A stretch of DNA of 25,864 nucleotides, from the IMG/VR virus record IMGVR_UViG_3300006117_000046, positions 1 through 25,864 of that record. One strand, written 5' to 3'. A model generated the notes under the pieces. The model saw only the letters and a program-made list of their open reading frames with translations, was not told the origin of the DNA and searched no databases. The position numbers and the translations under genes are program-made. This document shows, piece by piece, positions 3,763 to 25,852 of the stretch. The first letter of the stretch is position 1; each line of letters opens with the position of its first letter. The stretch comes from a virus.

Positions 3763-4539
3763 TTAATTTAGTTCACCCATACCAAGTATAAACCCATCAG
3801 GTATAGGAACATCTCTTTCTATTCTTTTCTTTTGTTTAAGTGTTGGATGGTAAATCCAAATTCTACCTTTAACAGCTTTATTGCCTTTATTTCTATAATT
3901 TCCTTTAACCCATCCAACAGGTATTGATTCATCAGGTCTTATTCTTCTTGTTTCTTTTGTTTCAAAGTTACAGATACTAATCATACCTTTTGTATTCAAA
4001 GGACAGCCTAATACCCATCCTTCTGGTAAGTCATCTTTTGATTTGATTCTTGTTCTTTTAAGTGTTATAGGATTGTAGCAGTGCTTGAGATTATTTGTCC
4101 TCTTTTGTCTTTTGGCATTATATGCAGCTCTTTCAGAAAAATATTTTCTATAATAACTGAACAAATGAGAATTATAGTATCTGTTTGGCAAATCTTTATT
4201 GCCTATTGTCTTCATTCTAAGAAAAGCATTGATCATTTTCATTCTATAGACATCAATAAACATTTTAACCAAAATGGCATGAATAATAAAATGTTCTCTG
4301 GATGTTAAGAATGCAATGTTTTCAGGATCTTTATTACCACCTCTTTTAAAGGATGTTGGTAAGATATGATGGCCTTCGACATAACCTAATAAGGCTTTGG
4401 CATCTGTTCTGTTTCTAGATCTTTCTAATGCTCTAGAAATAATATTAAAATACCATCTTGTATATTTGTTTTTTAATGCTATATTACAAACAAGAGTAAG
4501 ATAGTGATTGGAGTGAGTATAAGTATTTGTGCTGGTCAT
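3763..4539 (-). CDS. HNH homing endonuclease with C-terminal GW-repeat DNA-binding region
   Basis: A 258-residue free-standing endonuclease. The HNH core lies at residues 55-90: EGHHILP (His57, His58), DPENIAFLTS (Asn74) and REHFIIH (His83, His87). Three repeats of about 25 residues follow at 154-178, 190-213 and 230-253, each ending in IPxG(W/F)(V/I)xG. Such repeats are common in phage homing enzymes and probably bind DNA. These genes cut related phage DNA lacking them and spread by repair. It opposes its neighbours and sits between the end of the operon at 3757 and the plus-strand terminator at 4566-4601, as if inserted between a gene and its terminator. A late-type element at 4616-4623 and a hairpin lie in its leader. 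Confidence 0.88.
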   Translation of the reverse strand: MTSTNTYTHSNHYLTLVCNIALKNKYTRWYFNIISRALERSRNRTDAKALLGYVEGHHILPTSFKRGGNKDPENIAFLTSREHFIIHAILVKMFIDVYRMKMINAFLRMKTIGNKDLPNRYYNSHLFSYYRKYFSERAAYNAKRQKRTNNLKHCYNPITLKRTRIKSKDDLPEGWVLGCPLNTKGMISICNFETKETRRIRPDESIPVGWVKGNYRNKGNKAVKGRIWIYHPTLKQKKRIERDVPIPDGFILGMGELN

Positions 4540-4658: not shown

Positions 4659-5021
4659 ATGACCAATCATGAAAAGATTATAGAATTGATTAAGATTTGG
4701 CGTAATCTTATCTCTTGTAATCATTGCAAAGATAGGGATTTTCATTTCAGAATTAATACTCATTATTACTACGATGGGTTGTGCGAATATGAAGTCGAGC
4801 ATCATGGCTATATTTTACATGATATAAGAGATGAAGAATTTAAGACATTATATGAAGCTGAAGTTCATCTCATTCATAATGTTCTAAGATTTGGTATTCT
4901 TCAAGAACTTGATTGGTATATTGAGCATTATGGGGATCCTGAATGGGATCAGCATGATAGATACAATAAGCAGGATCTTGAGAGTCTTAGAAAAGCTGTT
5001 CTTGATATAGCACCAGAGTAA
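4659..5021 (+). CDS. Hypothetical protein (120 aa)
   Basis: No family recognised. The protein is rich in His, Tyr and acidic residues, with CNHC near residues 20-23 and several other histidines (HYYYDG, EVEHHGY, HDIRDE), so metal binding is possible but not shown. A helical region follows (FKTLYEAEVHLIHNVLRFGI), then LDWYIEHYGDPEWDQHDRY. It heads a short plus-strand operon behind a strong promoter, and the next gene starts one base after its stop (TAATATG). Confidence 0.7.
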   Translation: MTNHEKIIELIKIWRNLISCNHCKDRDFHFRINTHYYYDGLCEYEVEHHGYILHDIRDEEFKTLYEAEVHLIHNVLRFGILQELDWYIEHYGDPEWDQHDRYNKQDLESLRKAVLDIAPE

Positions 5022-5022
5022 T

Positions 5023-5178
5023 ATGAACCAGCCTGTACAAAAAGCTCTAGAACATTTATCAGACTTTTCGGCTGATGTTATAGCATCATTAACATTAGCT
5101 GAGAATTATGATCTTAAACAAATTGCCTATGATCTGGATTTAGTATTAACTGAATTAAGATATAAACTAGAAGATTAA
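5023..5178 (+). CDS. Small hypothetical helical protein (51 aa)
   Basis: A short open frame starting one base after the upstream stop in the TAATATG arrangement. It encodes 51 residues beginning MNQPVQKALEHLSDFSADVI and ending in RYKLED, an amphipathic and mostly helical product without cysteines or a membrane segment. The stop-T-ATG junction shared with other genes here, and the lack of another gene in this gap, support it as real. No function can be assigned. Confidence 0.6.
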   Translation: MNQPVQKALEHLSDFSADVIASLTLAENYDLKQIAYDLDLVLTELRYKLED

Positions 5179-5181
5179 ATA
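5176..5181 (+). promoter_or_regulatory. TAAATA late-like core before the 65-aa membrane protein
   Basis: GATTAAATA ends at 5181, five bases before the ATG at 5187. The same GATTAAATA-N5-ATG arrangement occurs at 10073-10084. The TAA is also the stop of the 51-residue gene, so this may be coincidence. Confidence 0.3.
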
Positions 5182-5186
5182 ATAAT

Positions 5187-5384
5187 ATGACACCTTTTGA
5201 ACTCATTGGACATATTACAATGGGTTTGTTTGCTGTAGGAATGATTCTATTCTTCTTAATGATCTTTAAGGGAGTTAAGAAAGTAAAGAAGAGAGGTAGA
5301 AAAGCTGATAGAAGGCTTAGAAGGTTTAATGTCTGGTTAAGAGAGTTTGAAAAGTTTAAGAAGAGTTGGTTCTATGAGATTTGA
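5187..5384 (+). CDS. Small inner-membrane protein with basic tail (65 aa)
   Basis: One membrane segment spans about residues 8-29 (LIGHITMGLFAVGMILFFLM). It is followed by a very basic cytoplasmic tail (KGVKKVKKRGRKADRRLRRF) and an aromatic end. By the positive-inside rule the C-terminus faces the cytoplasm. It could be a small host-membrane modulator, or it could tether something to the membrane. It is not in the lysis cassette and has only one span, so holin is less likely. It lies nine bases after the 51-residue gene. Confidence 0.65.
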   Translation: MTPFELIGHITMGLFAVGMILFFLMIFKGVKKVKKRGRKADRRLRRFNVWLREFEKFKKSWFYEI

Positions 5385-5405
5385 GTCAAAAAAAAAACAT
5401 TTTAG

Positions 5406-5413
5406 TATAAATA
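5406..5413 (+). promoter_or_regulatory. T4-type late promoter, exact consensus
   Basis: TATAAATA matches the T4 late -10 consensus in all eight positions, in a non-coding gap after a run of ten A residues. The ATG at 5422 starts eight bases later, so the leader would be only one or two bases. Confidence 0.6.
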
Positions 5414-5421
5414 ATATTAAT

Positions 5422-5688
5422 ATGAAATTTGATAAACTCACAGAAGCCTATTTGAAGGTTGTTAATGAAATGGGTATGAGTAATGTACCCACAACATTAA
5501 ACAGTGTTGGTCTCACTTATGTACCTTATAGAAATGAACAAGAAGCAGGAGCAATTCCTCATTTTGTGAGAGATGAAGGGTACACTTCGATAATTCCTCT
5601 TGAACATGGATGGGCTTGTGAGGCTAAGATGTTAAAGAGACATCAATCAGAAATTAAAAATTTTATAAAAAATTATTGGCTTGATTAA
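5422..5688 (+). CDS. Hypothetical late protein (88 aa)
   Basis: I chose the ATG at 5422 because a perfect TATAAATA lies just upstream. Longer in-frame starts (TTG 5347, ATG 5374) would run back into the preceding gene and through the promoter. The product begins MKFDKLTEAYLKVVNEMGMS, has a central GLTYVPYRNEQEAGAIPHFVR and ends in a basic helix with NYWLD. No family recognised. If the late promoter is real this may be a virion or assembly protein. It converges on the phosphoesterase gene at 5763; the 74 bases between hold no clear terminator. Confidence 0.6.
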   Translation: MKFDKLTEAYLKVVNEMGMSNVPTTLNSVGLTYVPYRNEQEAGAIPHFVRDEGYTSIIPLEHGWACEAKMLKRHQSEIKNFIKNYWLD

Positions 5689-8504: not shown

Positions 8505-9062
8505 ATGAAACCCACTGTTGTTTGGATTACAGGTTTATCAGGTGCTGGTAAGACTACTACCGCTAATGCTTTAAATGAAAAGCTTAAAGCTGAAGGTTAT
8601 AGGTCTGCTGTAGCTGATGCTGATACTTTAAGATACAATTCAAAAACTCCGATTGGATTTGATATTGAAGGTAGATGGAAAGCTGTTAACACAATGATCT
8701 ATGCTGTAAGAAATATGATTGAATTTCAGAGAGCTGAAGTTGTTATTGTTGCAAGTATTTCACCTCTTAAACAAATGAGAGCATTAGCACGAGATATTTT
8801 AACGAAATATTGTAATGCTAAGTTTATTGAAGTCTATATGGATACACCTCTCGAGATATGCGAAGAGAGAGATCCTAAAGGATTGTATAAAAAATTTAGA
8901 GCAGGCCTTATTAAGGATATGTCTGGAATTGACTCTCCTTATGAAGTACCAGAGTGGCCCGATGTAAGAATTCATCCAAGATCTACAGCTTATGGTAAAA
9001 TGACAGTTGCACGAGCTGTAGATATAATCTATAATCAAATTTACAACAAAACAACATTATGA
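8505..9062 (+). CDS. cysC: APS kinase-like protein
   Basis: A 185-residue P-loop kinase closely resembling adenylylsulfate kinase, which phosphorylates APS to PAPS in sulfate assimilation. Walker A is GLSGAGKTT at residues 10-18. DADTLR (38-43) corresponds to the DGDxxR motif, ISPL (85-88) to the ISPYR region, and ERDPKGLYKKFRAG (121-134) plus GIDSPYEVPE (141-150) are family hallmarks. The APS-contact helix usually reading DRxENIRR is replaced by GRWKAVNTM, and ISPYR lacks its Tyr-Arg, so the substrate could differ. It may supply PAPS, or a phosphorylated metabolite, during infection. It overlaps the next gene by four bases (ATGA). No sulfate-reduction partners are visible nearby. Confidence 0.82.
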   Translation: MKPTVVWITGLSGAGKTTTANALNEKLKAEGYRSAVADADTLRYNSKTPIGFDIEGRWKAVNTMIYAVRNMIEFQRAEVVIVASISPLKQMRALARDILTKYCNAKFIEVYMDTPLEICEERDPKGLYKKFRAGLIKDMSGIDSPYEVPEWPDVRIHPRSTAYGKMTVARAVDIIYNQIYNKTTL

Positions 9063-9454
9063 CAAAAAAGACACTACTACCTACTAACGACCTCTATCTT
9101 CAATTTACAGATGAGGAGATTCAAGAACTTGGCTGGGAAGCTGGTCAAAAGCTTGAAGTTAAACAACATGATGATGGTTCCATCGAGCTTCGTCCCTACG
9201 TAAAGCTTGAACTTGATATAGAAGAGTGGCCGAGAGAAGTTCTCGAGATGATTATTAAAGAATCAGTTGAGCAAGATATTTCTGCTAACGACGTTATTAC
9301 TAATATGGTTAAAGAAGGTATTGAACTTCTTAATAAGAAAGAAGACACTTTAAAGAACTCTTCTAAAGAGCTTCTACTTGAAAAGGATTATCTCTATAAC
9401 GCAGAAATAGATCCTAACTTTACTAACAACGATACTAGCATTTATAGCGCTTAG
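9059..9454 (+). CDS. AbrB-like / helix-type small DNA-binding candidate (131 aa)
   Basis: Residues 5-48 (LPTNDLYLQFTDEEIQELGW, then AGQKLEVKQHDDGSIELRPY) have the spacing of a SpoVT/AbrB swapped-hairpin domain: an LG-x-x-AG-x-x-LEV turn followed by a short strand. Residues ~55-95 (WPREVLEMIIKESVEQDISA and VKEGIELL) look like a ribbon-helix-helix or helical dimer. The tail is acidic and Asn-rich. Together these suggest a small regulator or antitoxin-like protein, but the AbrB call is by pattern only. It overlaps cysC by ATGA and ends in TAG. Six to seven CATAAT-like bases precede the next gene. Confidence 0.6.
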   Translation: MTKKTLLPTNDLYLQFTDEEIQELGWEAGQKLEVKQHDDGSIELRPYVKLELDIEEWPREVLEMIIKESVEQDISANDVITNMVKEGIELLNKKEDTLKNSSKELLLEKDYLYNAEIDPNFTNNDTSIYSA

Positions 9455-9468
9455 TCATAATTATCTTT

Positions 9469-10050
9469 ATGAAAAGATTTTTATTGTTATTTACTTTATT
9501 AATAGCTAGCTGTACATATTACACAGAGAAACAATCAGAAGCTCTTAGTCAGAATGTATATGCGACTAATGATTCTTTAGGGAAAGCAAGAGTTGACCTT
9601 GCTTATTTTTATTCTAACGAAACAACAAAGTTTGTCAAACCACCAAAACATCCAGTTAAGATAAATGCTGTTTATCAGGCAGGAGATGTTGTTAAAAATT
9701 CAAAATCAGCTGAAAAAACGAGAGTTGTTATTGTTCCTGATCAATATCGAAACGACAAAGTTGTTGTTGTTGGCTCTACTGAGTATCAAGAGTTACTAAA
9801 AGATAGAGAAATAAAGAAGCAGTTAGAGCAAGATAACAAAAATATGACTAAGCAGTTAGATATCAATAAAGATGAAATTAAAAAACAAAACGATATGCGT
9901 GATAAAATGGTAAAGGATCTAAATCATCTTCAATCTGAAATATATAAGAAGGATTTAGCTATTCTTTGGAGAAATATTATTATTATTAGTTTGCTTGGTC
10001 TCATTGGTGGGTATATCTACTTACGAATGAATAAGTTATTCTTTTTTTAA
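9469..10050 (+). CDS. Candidate unimolecular spanin (lipoprotein with C-terminal membrane segment)
   Basis: The 193-residue protein starts with a short basic and hydrophobic signal ending in the lipobox IASC (lipid-modified Cys15). A periplasmic region follows, including a strand-rich part (TRVVIVPDQYRNDKVVVVGS) and a coiled coil at about 110-160. One membrane span lies at ~165-186, with a short basic end. An outer-membrane lipid anchor plus an inner-membrane span is the layout of u-spanins such as T1 gp11, which fuse the two membranes at the end of lysis. The endolysin gene four genes downstream supports this. It is longer than typical u-spanins. An alternative is a phage lipoprotein of other function. 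Confidence 0.65.
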   Translation: MKRFLLLFTLLIASCTYYTEKQSEALSQNVYATNDSLGKARVDLAYFYSNETTKFVKPPKHPVKINAVYQAGDVVKNSKSAEKTRVVIVPDQYRNDKVVVVGSTEYQELLKDREIKKQLEQDNKNMTKQLDINKDEIKKQNDMRDKMVKDLNHLQSEIYKKDLAILWRNIIIISLLGLIGGYIYLRMNKLFFF

Positions 10051-10072
10051 TAATAAAACCTACCTTTTTGAT

Positions 10073-10078
10073 TAAATA
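10073..10078 (+). promoter_or_regulatory. TAAATA late-like core before the 64-aa membrane protein
   Basis: GATTAAATA ends at 10078 in a 33-base non-coding gap, five bases before the ATG at 10084. It matches TATAAATA in the last six positions plus one earlier T/A position. Confidence 0.4.
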
Positions 10079-10083
10079 TATGT

Positions 10084-10278
10084 ATGGATACGTTTATACA
10101 TACATTAACATCCGTAGAGACAGCTGTTACAAGTGATGTAACCGCTACTAAATCCTATTTCGATAAGACAGCTCCGGTTGTTCTTACTAATATTGAAAAC
10201 TGGATTATTGCTAATCCGAAGAAAGCATGTGCTATTATATTCTTTGTTGTTGGCTTTATCCTTGGAACCTTAATCTAA
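10084..10278 (+). CDS. Small C-tail membrane protein in the lysis cassette (64 aa)
   Basis: A 64-residue protein with a soluble helical N-terminal part (ETAVTSDVTATKSYFDKTAP) and a C-terminal membrane segment at ~47-64 (KKACAIIFFVVGFILGTLI). The NPKK-then-Gly-rich helix ending resembles the C-tail of ElaB/YqjD proteins (ENPWxxVGxAxGVGFLLGLL), which are membrane tethers. In this position a holin-like or lysis-timing role is also possible, though there is only one span. A perfect hairpin covers its stop codon. Confidence 0.65.
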   Translation: MDTFIHTLTSVETAVTSDVTATKSYFDKTAPVVLTNIENWIIANPKKACAIIFFVVGFILGTLI

Positions 10279-10284
10279 GGTTCT
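10264..10284 (+). other. Perfect stem-loop across a stop codon
   Basis: GAACCTTA (10265-10272) and TAAGGTTC (10276-10283) are perfect eight-base arms around a three-base loop, with a further G-T pair. The TAA stop of the 64-residue gene (10276-10278) lies in the right arm. No T tract follows, so it is more likely a processing or stability hairpin, or a weak attenuator, than a full terminator. Confidence 0.45.
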
Positions 10285-10294
10285 TAACAAAGCT

Positions 10295-10423
10295 ATGGAA
10301 TATTATCCTTCACGCTCTCCCTATCTCTTTATTCTCTTGTGTATATACGCCCTATTACTTGGGTTCGTTATAGCACACTGTATTTTATTTCACTTAAATA
10401 AAGTTAGTTTATTCTTTTATTGA
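10295..10423 (+). CDS. Very small membrane protein, holin or antiholin candidate (42 aa)
   Basis: This frame encodes 42 residues: a short start (MEYYPSRSP), a strongly hydrophobic segment of about 24 residues (LFILLCIYALLLGFVIAHCI) and the tail HLNKVSLFFY. It fills the gap between two membrane-protein genes upstream of the endolysin. Single-span proteins of this size occur among holins and lysis regulators, but no family is recognisable. There is no clear ribosome binding site. Confidence 0.5.
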   Translation: MEYYPSRSPYLFILLCIYALLLGFVIAHCILFHLNKVSLFFY

Positions 10424-10454
10424 TATAGATAAGTATTTTTATTGCGCATAATTT

Positions 10455-10817
10455 ATGGAAAGGAGAAAATTATTTCAAAAAGAGAATTTCATGGAAGGTA
10501 ATCGCCAAAGATGGGTGTTTATTTTTCTCGTGTTTATGATTCTTATTATTAGTCTCGATGCGTTGCATCTTCTCAAAGATCCAACACCATACTTGACATT
10601 CCTTACATTTTTAGCAGGTTCGTTTATATTAGGCTATTCAGGTACATCTGTAATGCAATTATTCCGGTCTAGTAGTATAAATGAGAATCAAAATATCGAT
10701 CAAACCGTTGATGAGCACAAGGATATTAACGAAACTAAGAATATTAATTTAAATGAACAGACATTTTCTAATAACGCTAAGGAAAATGACTACAATATAC
10801 AGGATATTAATATATGA
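10455..10817 (+). CDS. Two-span membrane protein, leading holin candidate (120 aa)
   Basis: Two membrane segments (about residues 20-38 and 45-64) are joined by a short DPTP turn and followed by an Asn/Glu-rich soluble tail of ~50 residues that repeats short (E/K)(N/D)IN patterns. Two spans next to an endolysin fit a class II-type holin, although the long acidic tail is unusual. An internal ATG at 10491 would remove 12 residues and leave the membrane part intact; dual starts are known in holin/antiholin pairs, but that is not shown here. The end overlaps the endolysin start by four bases (ATGA), a strong functional link. Confidence 0.6.
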   Translation: MERRKLFQKENFMEGNRQRWVFIFLVFMILIISLDALHLLKDPTPYLTFLTFLAGSFILGYSGTSVMQLFRSSSINENQNIDQTVDEHKDINETKNINLNEQTFSNNAKENDYNIQDINI

Positions 10818-11425
10818 AACAACCATCACCTGAAGCTTTAAATCTAATTCTTGAATATGAGGTTGGCGGTGGTAAAAGTTATTATGAAAAGCTTTTATTG
10901 CACCCTACTTGGCCAGGAGGCGCCTCTGGAACCACTTTAGCTGTTGGTGTTGATTGTGGTTATTATACACCTGATGAATTAGAAAAAATATTTTATTTTT
11001 TACCATCAAATCAGCTCGATGCCGTAAAGAAGGCATCCGGTAAAACAGGAGAAGCTGGTAAAAACTATGTCAAACAAATAAAACCTCTCAATATTACTGT
11101 AACTTGGGATCAAGCTATCGAAATATTCAATACACTCACCTGGCCTAAATTTGCACGTCTTGCTGAACATACGTTCCCAGGGCTAGATCAGCTTTGCGAC
11201 AATGCTTATGGTGCTTTAGTTTCATTAGTTTTTAATAGAGGCACTAGTCTTAGTGGTTCTAGTCGTGCTGAAATGAGGACAATACGTGAATTGGTTCCTA
11301 AGAAGGATTATAAAGGTATAGCAGAAGAACTACGTAGTATGAAGCGTATTTGGGAAGGGAAAAATCTCGATGGACTATTAGCTAGGCGTGAAGCCGAAGC
11401 TAAATTAGTAGAATCTTGTATATAA
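10814..11425 (+). CDS. Lysozyme-like endolysin
   Basis: A 203-residue peptidoglycan-degrading enzyme of the lysozyme-like superfamily. It starts SPEALNLILEYEVGGGKSYY, with Glu16 as likely general acid. HPTWPGGASGTTLAVGVDCGY then gives the active-site loop and Asp47, matching phage muramidases of the pesticin/GH24-like kind, where the usual text is GGASGVTIGxGYDLGY. NAYGALVSLVFNRGTSL corresponds to the conserved C-lobe helix with NRG. There is no signal peptide, so a holin must release it. It ends the lysis cassette, and ATGA overlap couples it to the two-span membrane protein. CGT is the main arginine codon, unlike the early operons. Confidence 0.85.
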   Translation: MKQPSPEALNLILEYEVGGGKSYYEKLLLHPTWPGGASGTTLAVGVDCGYYTPDELEKIFYFLPSNQLDAVKKASGKTGEAGKNYVKQIKPLNITVTWDQAIEIFNTLTWPKFARLAEHTFPGLDQLCDNAYGALVSLVFNRGTSLSGSSRAEMRTIRELVPKKDYKGIAEELRSMKRIWEGKNLDGLLARREAEAKLVESCI

Positions 11426-11628: not shown

Positions 11629-12105
11629 TTAAGATGTCTGCTTAAATGTTCTATAATATTTGTAAAATTTAGCTGCATGTGCACGTTCAAATTGTCTAGC
11701 ATCTATTTCACATTCATTTCGATAATATGCATTTGTATTACGCTCTACATCTTCATCGGTATAATTTATCCTCGATATACCCACCTTGTAAACTCTTGAT
11801 TGCATCCAATGACGAAATTCATGAAGAAAATGATTAAAAAAAGCTCGCCTCATTTGTATATTTGACGGTCGATTGCTTTTGGTAGGATTACAACATAAAC
11901 GAATTTTATCAGTTTTAAAGGTATAACAACTAAAATCCGAATCAAACATTATTTGTAATGTTAATGTTTTTTGTCTCGTACTCGTCGTTGGTTCAAGTTC
12001 GGCAAAAAGTAAAGAGATAGCTGCCTCCATAGCGTGAAGATTTACTTTATTTTCTTCAAACCATGTAGTAGACTTTTTTGTAGGTCTTAACTTAAAAATA
12101 ATCAT
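11629..12105 (-). CDS. HExxH metallopeptidase-like protein (158 aa)
   Basis: Residues 95-99 read HEFRH, a zinc-peptidase HExxH motif, within a hydrophobic helix (AFFNHFLHEFRHWMQSRV). About 32 residues later comes NECEIDARQFERAH, a Glu-rich helix that could give the third ligand (Glu131), as in gluzincin-type or SprT/ImmA-like families. The N-terminal 60 residues are strand-like and cysteine pairs occur near 60-72. Targets might be a host regulator or a virion part. The gene is alone on its strand between plus-strand genes. Naming a subfamily would need profile searches. Confidence 0.65.
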   Translation of the reverse strand: MIIFKLRPTKKSTTWFEENKVNLHAMEAAISLLFAELEPTTSTRQKTLTLQIMFDSDFSCYTFKTDKIRLCCNPTKSNRPSNIQMRRAFFNHFLHEFRHWMQSRVYKVGISRINYTDEDVERNTNAYYRNECEIDARQFERAHAAKFYKYYRTFKQTS

Positions 12106-25000: not shown

Positions 25001-25008
25001 AATTTATA
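25001..25008 (-). promoter_or_regulatory. T4-late-like element before gp44
   Basis: TATAAATT on the minus strand, seven of eight to TATAAATA, six bases before the ATG at 24994. It overlaps the stop codon of the homing endonuclease gene. Confidence 0.45.
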
Positions 25009-25852
25009 TTGTATACCGTAATTTGACAAATTCAATAAATTTTTTAATACCGACATGATAAACATGTAAGGAAGTGTTTTCTTTCATATACCTGTAAATA
25101 TCGTATGAATCTTTATTTTGATTTAGTAAATCTAAGACGATACCCCTATACTCTAGTAAACCTGTTCTTCTATACATACTTTGCTGATATAAATACTGCC
25201 GCTTAAATTTTAATTCGGCTGTTTCACTCGCTTTATATCTCTTAACTCCACACGATACTTTCTCGGAATATTCTTTCATATCCTTATTATTAGCTTTTCT
25301 TACTTCCCAGGTTTTTTTTGAAGCTGTACTCTTAAGACGAGATTCATGGTTCCTCTGAGGAGTTGTTCTCTTAGACTTTGTTTCAAGTTCTTTTATTTTT
25401 CTAGCTTTTCTTATATCTACTGTCATATTTTTTTGGTATCGCTTGTTTGCTTCAGATAACTTTTTTGATAAAATTAATTTTTCTTCTTTTGTTCTTTTAG
25501 CGCACGAACGCTTATAGCTTTCAACACGCTTAGGTACTGCTAACTTTAAAGATAATTTCCACTTATCATAATTTTTAATTATTTGTCCGCCTGAGCTATA
25601 TCCGTTTATATTAAGATAATTTTGATTATTACAGCAATCGAGCTGGTTAAGCCAATAATTTTCCTTCAATGTAAGTTCGTTTTTTGTACTGGCTGTATCA
25701 ATTATTATTTTTTGTATATAAATACTATTTCGTTTAAACCAAGGAATTAATTTACCTGAGCCAAGATATTTTTTATTGTTTTTTACATCTTTACCGACAT
25801 AGTAGAATATTTTATTATCTTTTAAGATAAATTTTGTTCTATATATAATCAC
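25004..25852 (-). CDS. GIY-YIG homing endonuclease
   Basis: A 282-residue free-standing endonuclease of the Seg/I-TevI-like group. The catalytic domain is at residues 1-90: IIYRTKF and FYYVGKD form the two strands of the GIY-YIG motif, then KKYLGSGK, catalytic Glu64 in KENYWLNQLD and NYLNINGYSSGG. The middle ~120 residues are very basic and helical (DNA contact). The C-terminal ~50 residues (LNQNKDSYDIYRYMKE, VYHVGIKKFIEFV) look like a helix-turn-helix. The start is GTG at 25852, six bases after TAAATA at the window edge. It lies directly upstream of gp44, a typical place for homing genes beside replication genes. I saw no truncation. Confidence 0.85.
   Translation of the reverse strand: MIIYRTKFILKDNKIFYYVGKDVKNNKKYLGSGKLIPWFKRNSIYIQKIIIDTASTKNELTLKENYWLNQLDCCNNQNYLNINGYSSGGQIIKNYDKWKLSLKLAVPKRVESYKRSCAKRTKEEKLILSKKLSEANKRYQKNMTVDIRKARKIKELETKSKRTTPQRNHESRLKSTASKKTWEVRKANNKDMKEYSEKVSCGVKRYKASETAELKFKRQYLYQQSMYRRTGLLEYRGIVLDLLNQNKDSYDIYRYMKENTSLHVYHVGIKKFIEFVKLRYTI

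Follow-up and report, generated by a model that had tools for sequence, protein, structure and literature searches.

The five adjacent open reading frames (ORFs) at positions 9469-11425 of a 25,864-base virus record, the whole of which is referred to below as the window, raise the question whether they form a phage lysis cassette and which of their products would serve as endolysin, holin and spanin. All five are encoded on the plus strand, and re-deriving the ORF coordinates reproduced both the five ORFs and the ATGA overlap reported in a first-pass annotation:

9469..10050 (+): u-spanin candidate, 193 aa, with leader, lipobox, periplasmic part, long predicted helix and C-terminal span
9469-9513 (+): leader with the lipobox IASC, Cys15 of the 193-aa protein being its last residue
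10084..10278 (+): membrane protein of 64 aa, span at the C-terminus, putative accessory protein
10295..10423 (+): 42-aa single-span protein, putative optional accessory protein
10455..10817 (+): 120-aa holin candidate with two predicted spans and a flexible tail
10773..10793 (+): NAKENDY, the tail motif of the 120-aa holin candidate (residues 107-113)
10814..11425 (+): 203-aa endolysin of the phage lysozyme family PF00959

These five genes probably constitute the lysis cassette of an environmental, T4-like phage, composed of a cytoplasmic endolysin, a 120-aa holin, a 193-aa u-spanin and two accessory proteins. Among the T4-type genes in the record are one for a putative clamp loader, 40.6% identical to cyanophage gp44, and one for a putative baseplate wedge protein of the gp6 type (about 25% identity). 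The presumed functions are ordinary and the sequence families unfamiliar; the lysis reading itself appears well supported by linkage. A nucleotide search of the phages collection gave no match for the cassette DNA, and an identical cassette was found on a contig of 76 kb (L018). Gene order, conservation, lipobox, spans and the endolysin family are all evident from the sequences.

Scans of viral contigs yielded 17 loci with the 193-aa protein as query and 53 loci with the endolysin, which were merged by contig name into 56 distinct contigs. A full relative of the 193-aa protein was present in 47 of them (38 distinct sequences), one contig carried a fragment and eight carried none. Among these eight, the contigs L052, L060 and L069 end too early, no spanin-like gene was detected upstream in L059 and L062 (stretch examined 1.9 kb or less) or in L061 (2.6 kb), and L066 and L067 have other genes in that position. 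According to profile searches the family of the 120-aa protein occurs in 55 of the 56 contigs, the copy of L060 being truncated and the exception, L069, starting inside the endolysin gene; the 64-aa and the 42-aa families were recovered in 37 and 22 contigs, respectively.

A wider scan of viral contigs using the spanin profile gave 75 loci. All loci together contain 63 distinct spanin ORFs, 61 of them full-length (187-226 aa; the fragments L058 and L167 were left out), where distinct means non-identical proteins, many of which are close kin from related samples. A cassette was regarded as testable if at least 1.7 kb followed the spanin gene, which applied to 58 of the 61. Both the holin family and the endolysin were found downstream in all 58, and also downstream of each of the 57 distinct spanins from loci that had been recruited by the spanin profile alone and extend over at least 1.7 kb downstream. 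The spacing between holin and endolysin genes is 20 bases or less in 55/58 cassettes and exactly the four-base overlap in 44/58, as in the window, where the ATGA at 10814-10817 joins the end of the 120-aa gene to the endolysin start; larger gaps occur in L002 (853 bases), L050 (117 bases) and L105 (114 bases). The proposal of a lysis cassette is supported, and the arrangement goes beyond chance, since homologues of each protein keep the same order in other viral contigs. In eight related records PF00959 gave one match each, and the spanin profile gave one match in seven; in the eighth, that of L066, the spanin slot is taken up by other genes. These are a gene for a 71-aa proline-rich lipoprotein with weak matches to PHROG "Rz-like spanin" profiles (best E 0.0095) and an adjoining gene for a 173-aa membrane protein (4808-5541). 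The corresponding slot of L067 (5335-5697) encodes a lipobox protein of 121 aa with its span at the C-terminus, the start being chosen inside an ORF of 137 aa.

The ratio pN/pS was below 1 for all five genes in every comparison (13-15 pairs per gene), with values of 0.16-0.54 for the 64-aa gene and noisy values of 0.03-0.69 for the 42-aa gene (31-42 codons). Taken together with the conserved order and the sequence conservation, the low ratios suggest that both of the smallest genes are genuine.

The lysozyme-like enzyme of the initial annotation was confirmed by the score of the 203-aa protein against PF00959 (39 bits, curated cut-off 22.3), and solved lysozymes matched the endolysin profile with a best E of 1.5e-05. 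The protein resembles phage lysozymes in sharing 41.8% identity with the endolysin of Xanthomonas phage AhaSv and in having relatives of similar domain length. It differs in that the family match spans residues 88-195 and does not cover the N-terminal part in which the catalytic residues are expected. The catalytic arrangement of phage lysozymes is Glu-Asp-Thr, and E16 and T41, both in the N-terminal part outside the match, are invariant in 34 sequences. Neither an N-terminal signal nor a SAR-like hydrophobic segment was detected in the 203-aa protein, and the N-terminal hydropathy reaches at most 0.84 in 40 distinct relatives; due to this lack of a hydrophobic segment the canonical holin route fits the cassette and a SAR endolysin does not. 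L066 and L067 share this endolysin family despite their different spanin-like genes.

The 193-aa protein carries Cys15 behind a short hydrophobic leader ending in IAS and, as indicated by hydropathy, a C-terminal span. Among the 38 distinct relatives of the first two scans the lipobox and its cysteine were recovered by pattern in every case, with leaders of 13-21 residues and with Thr (33) or Ala (5) following the cysteine. The u-spanin architecture proposed earlier was confirmed across all 61 distinct full-length relatives, each of which has the lipobox cysteine (57 by the strict pattern and four read by eye, one of them from an internal Met) and a C-terminal span by hydropathy. Across 37 aligned sequences, C15, Y18, K21, Y31, R41, D43 and P90 are among the residues that never vary. 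The window protein has no periplasmic cysteine; among the 38 distinct relatives a periplasmic Cys48 occurs in L048 and L053, and Cys170 of L032 and Cys165 of L003 lie at or in the span.

Searches of Pfam, PHROG and NCBIfam returned no convincing match for the spanin, only weak and scattered ones: phrog_6073 (Rz-like spanin) matches 9 of 37 members weakly (best E 0.0021), and twelve members score as well against a PHROG of unknown function as against phrog_6073. At E values up to 10 the 193-aa protein hit nothing in the phages collection, from which T1 may be absent. In a relative of 193 kb, present in ten pieces, six of 470 ORFs of at least 45 aa match the lipobox pattern, of which only the spanin homologue appears credible by our own reading. 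Six ORFs with a lone N-terminal span, as expected of an i-spanin, were also found, none of them closer than 2 kb to any of the five remaining ORFs with the lipobox pattern. Hence no convincing i-/o-spanin pair was detected in this relative by simple patterns, which an embedded or unusual pair could escape. Both membrane anchors of the candidate are placed in one ORF, unlike the separate subunits of two-component systems, and we read the 193-aa protein as a putative unimolecular spanin.

An AlphaFold2 monomer model based on an alignment of 37 rows (mean pLDDT 83.1, pTM only 0.64) contains helices at residues 24-38 and 42-52, strands at 68-71 and 83-86, a short helix at 104-109 and a single helix of 78 residues (113-190), the end of which (about 163-183) corresponds to the inner-membrane span. 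The strand-rich domain that had been postulated in front of a coiled coil is therefore mostly wrong; two helices plus a small beta element, with loops making up the rest, would describe the N-terminal region better. The long helix seems well predicted. The mean hydropathy of residues 113-159 peaks at a period of 3.57 residues. The moment at a fixed period of 3.5 was reached by 27 of 5000 shuffles, but the maximum with the period left free was reached by as many as 21 of 500, so that a coiled-coil pairing of the helix is plausible and at most suggested. A structure search of a viral library gave a single match at E 0.001 or better, an uncharacterised phage protein of 58% identity, and a search of the PDB with the model gave none at this threshold. 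The sequence search of the PDB returned only six matches (E 0.017-0.99), some of which are de novo designs.

In the consulted sections of Kongari et al. 2018 (PMC6139136), 58 u-spanins of 13 families, with T1 gp11 as prototype, are described as predicted mainly beta and devoid of periplasmic cysteines, and a beta-sheet collapse is proposed for them; the mainly-beta description and the collapse are repeated in the part of PMC7830690 available to us. The 193-aa protein resembles these u-spanins in its N-terminal lipobox, its C-terminal span, its place in the lysis cassette and, in the window, the lack of periplasmic cysteines. It shares the company of a canonical endolysin with 17 of the 46 u-spanin genomes with an identified endolysin that are counted in section 13 of PMC6139136. 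It is set apart from the published descriptions by a predicted long helix with two short strands, so that a beta-rich make-up of the T1 gp11 type was not found in the model, which is mostly helical. The predicted helical and possibly coiled-coil periplasmic stalk and the lipid anchor expected in the outer membrane are, in turn, reminiscent of lambda Rz/Rz1, from which the candidate differs in being one protein, in placing the inner-membrane span at the C-terminus and not at the N-terminus of a separate i-spanin, and in the lack of a periplasmic cysteine in the window protein.

The first-pass description of the three small proteins as membrane proteins was supported, but their joint designation as holin/antiholin candidates was based on size and hydropathy only and became weaker: the 120-aa family is present in every testable cassette, while the 64-aa and 42-aa families are found in 40/58 and 19/58. 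Because of its two spans and its presence in every testable cassette, to which a conserved tail motif may be added, the 120-aa protein appears to be the best holin candidate. Judged from charges, it would have two spans with both termini in the cytoplasm (N-in/C-in), and a model of low confidence (mean pLDDT 61.7) shows helices at 16-36 and 43-79 and a disordered tail. One example of a class II-topology holin is S68 of phage 21, with two spans and N-in/C-in orientation. The 120-aa protein resembles this type in its two predicted spans, in the cytoplasmic location of both ends suggested by the charges and in the overlap with the endolysin start, and differs by a C-terminal tail that is long, flexible and marked by a conserved motif. 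Searches of Pfam, PHROG and NCBIfam gave no convincing match, with one of 40 members hitting a PHROG annotated as "holin" (E 0.043).

All 42 distinct members recruited via the endolysin or the spanin carry N-x-K-[ED]-x-[DG]-Y in the tail; a wider tally of 64/64 includes loci recruited by the motif itself and is not independent. An RNA signal for endolysin translation was rejected as the sole cause of this conservation, since synonymous codons are mixed (AAC 21 and AAT 21; AAG 19 and AAA 23) and the residues hardly vary; it is further countered by L043, L050-L052 and L061, in which the holin gene stops short of the endolysin start. The family occurs in a short version of 111-127 aa, to which the divergent copy of L067 belongs, and a long version of 137-158 aa with another N-terminus, which is 17-29% identical to the window protein; the second span and the tail seem to be common to both versions. 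A comparison of L003 (333-1654) with L033 (3369-4691) gave a pS of 0.81 for the spanin and 0.39 for the holin, the lower value pointing to mosaic cassettes in which the holin gene may have been swapped recently.

Homologues of the 64-aa protein are missing from 18 of the 58 testable cassettes, and the 42-aa family was never found without the 64-aa family. In 7 of these 18 cassettes an ORF of 38-43 aa stands in place of the 64-aa gene, and in the other 11 no ORF of 25-85 aa lies between the spanin and the 120-aa gene. W40, P45, G57 and G61 of the 64-aa protein, which has its span at the C-terminus, are invariant in 29 aligned sequences. No convincing match was obtained in Pfam, PHROG or NCBIfam for either protein, and from the sequences they are presumed to be accessory, with putative roles. 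Several small membrane proteins in one lysis set, considered unusual in the initial annotation, are not unprecedented: the portion of PMC9025707 consulted describes for phage P1 the holin LydA, the antiholin LydB and the predicted holins LydC and LydD, and that of PMC8776804 three multi-span proteins near a potential u-spanin in Cellulophaga phage Nekkels.

Different assignments within the cassette have to be considered. The 193-aa protein might be an envelope-bridging lipoprotein with another job, such as superinfection exclusion or envelope stabilisation, that merely lies beside the holin and endolysin genes. The lack of a strong spanin family match would agree with such a role, as would weak matches of 2 of 37 members to the superinfection exclusion family phrog_1119 (best E 0.0063) and a conserved N-terminal domain bigger than a simple tether requires. 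Taking into account that holin and endolysin genes follow all 57 spanins found independently of them, that other spanin-like genes occupy the slot in L066 and L067, and that the 193-kb relative offers no other credible lipobox ORF, this seems quite unlikely, and the u-spanin assignment is preferred.

As to the holin, the 64-aa or the 42-aa protein could be the true pore former and the 120-aa protein an antiholin or a regulator binding the endolysin via its tail. The tail motif present in 42/42 distinct relatives is unneeded by a simple pore, the 64-aa protein is common and bears glycines in its span, and the small ORFs that replace its gene in seven of the cassettes without a recognised relative may point in the same direction. 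We nevertheless regard this arrangement as unlikely in view of the universal presence of the 120-aa family in testable cassettes and of the 11/58 cassettes without any small ORF ahead of it. The 120-aa gene might alternatively produce holin and antiholin from a dual start like that of lambda S, given that Met13 in the window follows Met1 at a distance of 36 bases with basic residues in between; as only 4 of 13 short-type relatives have Met at the aligned position (Leu in 6, Cys in 3), such a mechanism seems very improbable.

With the 120-aa protein as holin and the 193-aa protein as u-spanin, the endolysin, which lacks an export signal, would remain cytoplasmic up to the moment at which the holin breaches the inner membrane. 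The u-spanin would act after cleavage of the peptidoglycan, anchored to the outer membrane by its lipidated N-terminus and to the inner membrane by its C-terminal span. A collapse of its long helix, which probably oligomerises into a coiled coil, would then fuse the two membranes. The 64-aa and 42-aa proteins would probably tune the timing, either antiholin-like or as accessory factors. In this scheme we infer lipidation, membrane sorting, helix oligomerisation, fusion, holin activity and the roles of the two smallest proteins.

More tentatively, and with somewhat less than an even chance in our estimation, the locus may represent a class of helical single-protein spanins, in which both u-spanin anchors are combined with a coiled-coil stalk of the two-component type, together with a new holin family whose cytoplasmic tail, with its nearly invariant N-x-K-E-x-D-Y, serves binding or regulation. 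The consulted parts of PMC6139136 and PMC7830690 hold u-spanins to be mainly beta and thus to fuse membranes unlike the helical two-component spanins; if our proposal were true, unimolecular spanins would not need to use beta-sheet collapse. Helical u-spanins may already have been published, the contrast being drawn here against what those two sources say in these parts. The conserved anchoring by one protein and the predicted helical stalk make the beta-only claim directly testable by swapping stalks or anchors, and the conserved holin tail offers a target for studying the timing of lysis in such uncultured phages.

Concerning the host, no relative was found in the genome collection using the spanin profile. 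The endolysin profile gave two matches there, in a Leptospiraceae MAG (40% identity), whose ORF list shows no spanin/holin cassette beside the endolysin relative, and in an Alphaproteobacteria MAG (partial, 43%). A Shine-Dalgarno-like site within 20 bases upstream was detected for 3 of 26 window genes with ATG starts and was absent from 23. Among distinct relatives such sites precede 3/37 spanin, 3/30 64-aa, 1/17 42-aa and 2/39 holin genes, and 24/39 endolysin genes. This scarcity might suit a Bacteroidota host, and according to the accessible part of a survey (PMC12596118), Bacteroidetes phages use only u-spanins. The sequence TANNTTTG, which we take to be a Bacteroidota promoter-like motif, was not enriched (38 found vs 35.1 expected), which counts against such a host.

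The cassette is flanked upstream by an adenylylsulphate kinase-like gene (8505-9062, +; PF01583, E 4e-45), which is 94-95% identical in L006, L034, L035 and L036, the cassettes of which differ more. Between kinase and spanin genes, in the window (9059-9454, +) as in several relatives, lies a gene for a 131-aa protein with a MazE-like N-terminus (23.5 bits, below the Pfam cut-off of 24.7). Further away, the ORFs at 3763-4539 (-) and 25004-25852 (-) resemble by eye what we presume to be homing endonucleases (HNH-like and GIY-YIG-like, respectively). Just past the cassette a convergent gene (11629-12105, -) encodes a 158-aa protein without a Pfam match above the cut-off, which contains HEFRH, presumably fitting the zinc-peptidase motif HExxH. 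All 19 contigs that allowed an alignment of the protein retain this motif, and in one of the 19 the copy is identical to that of the window.
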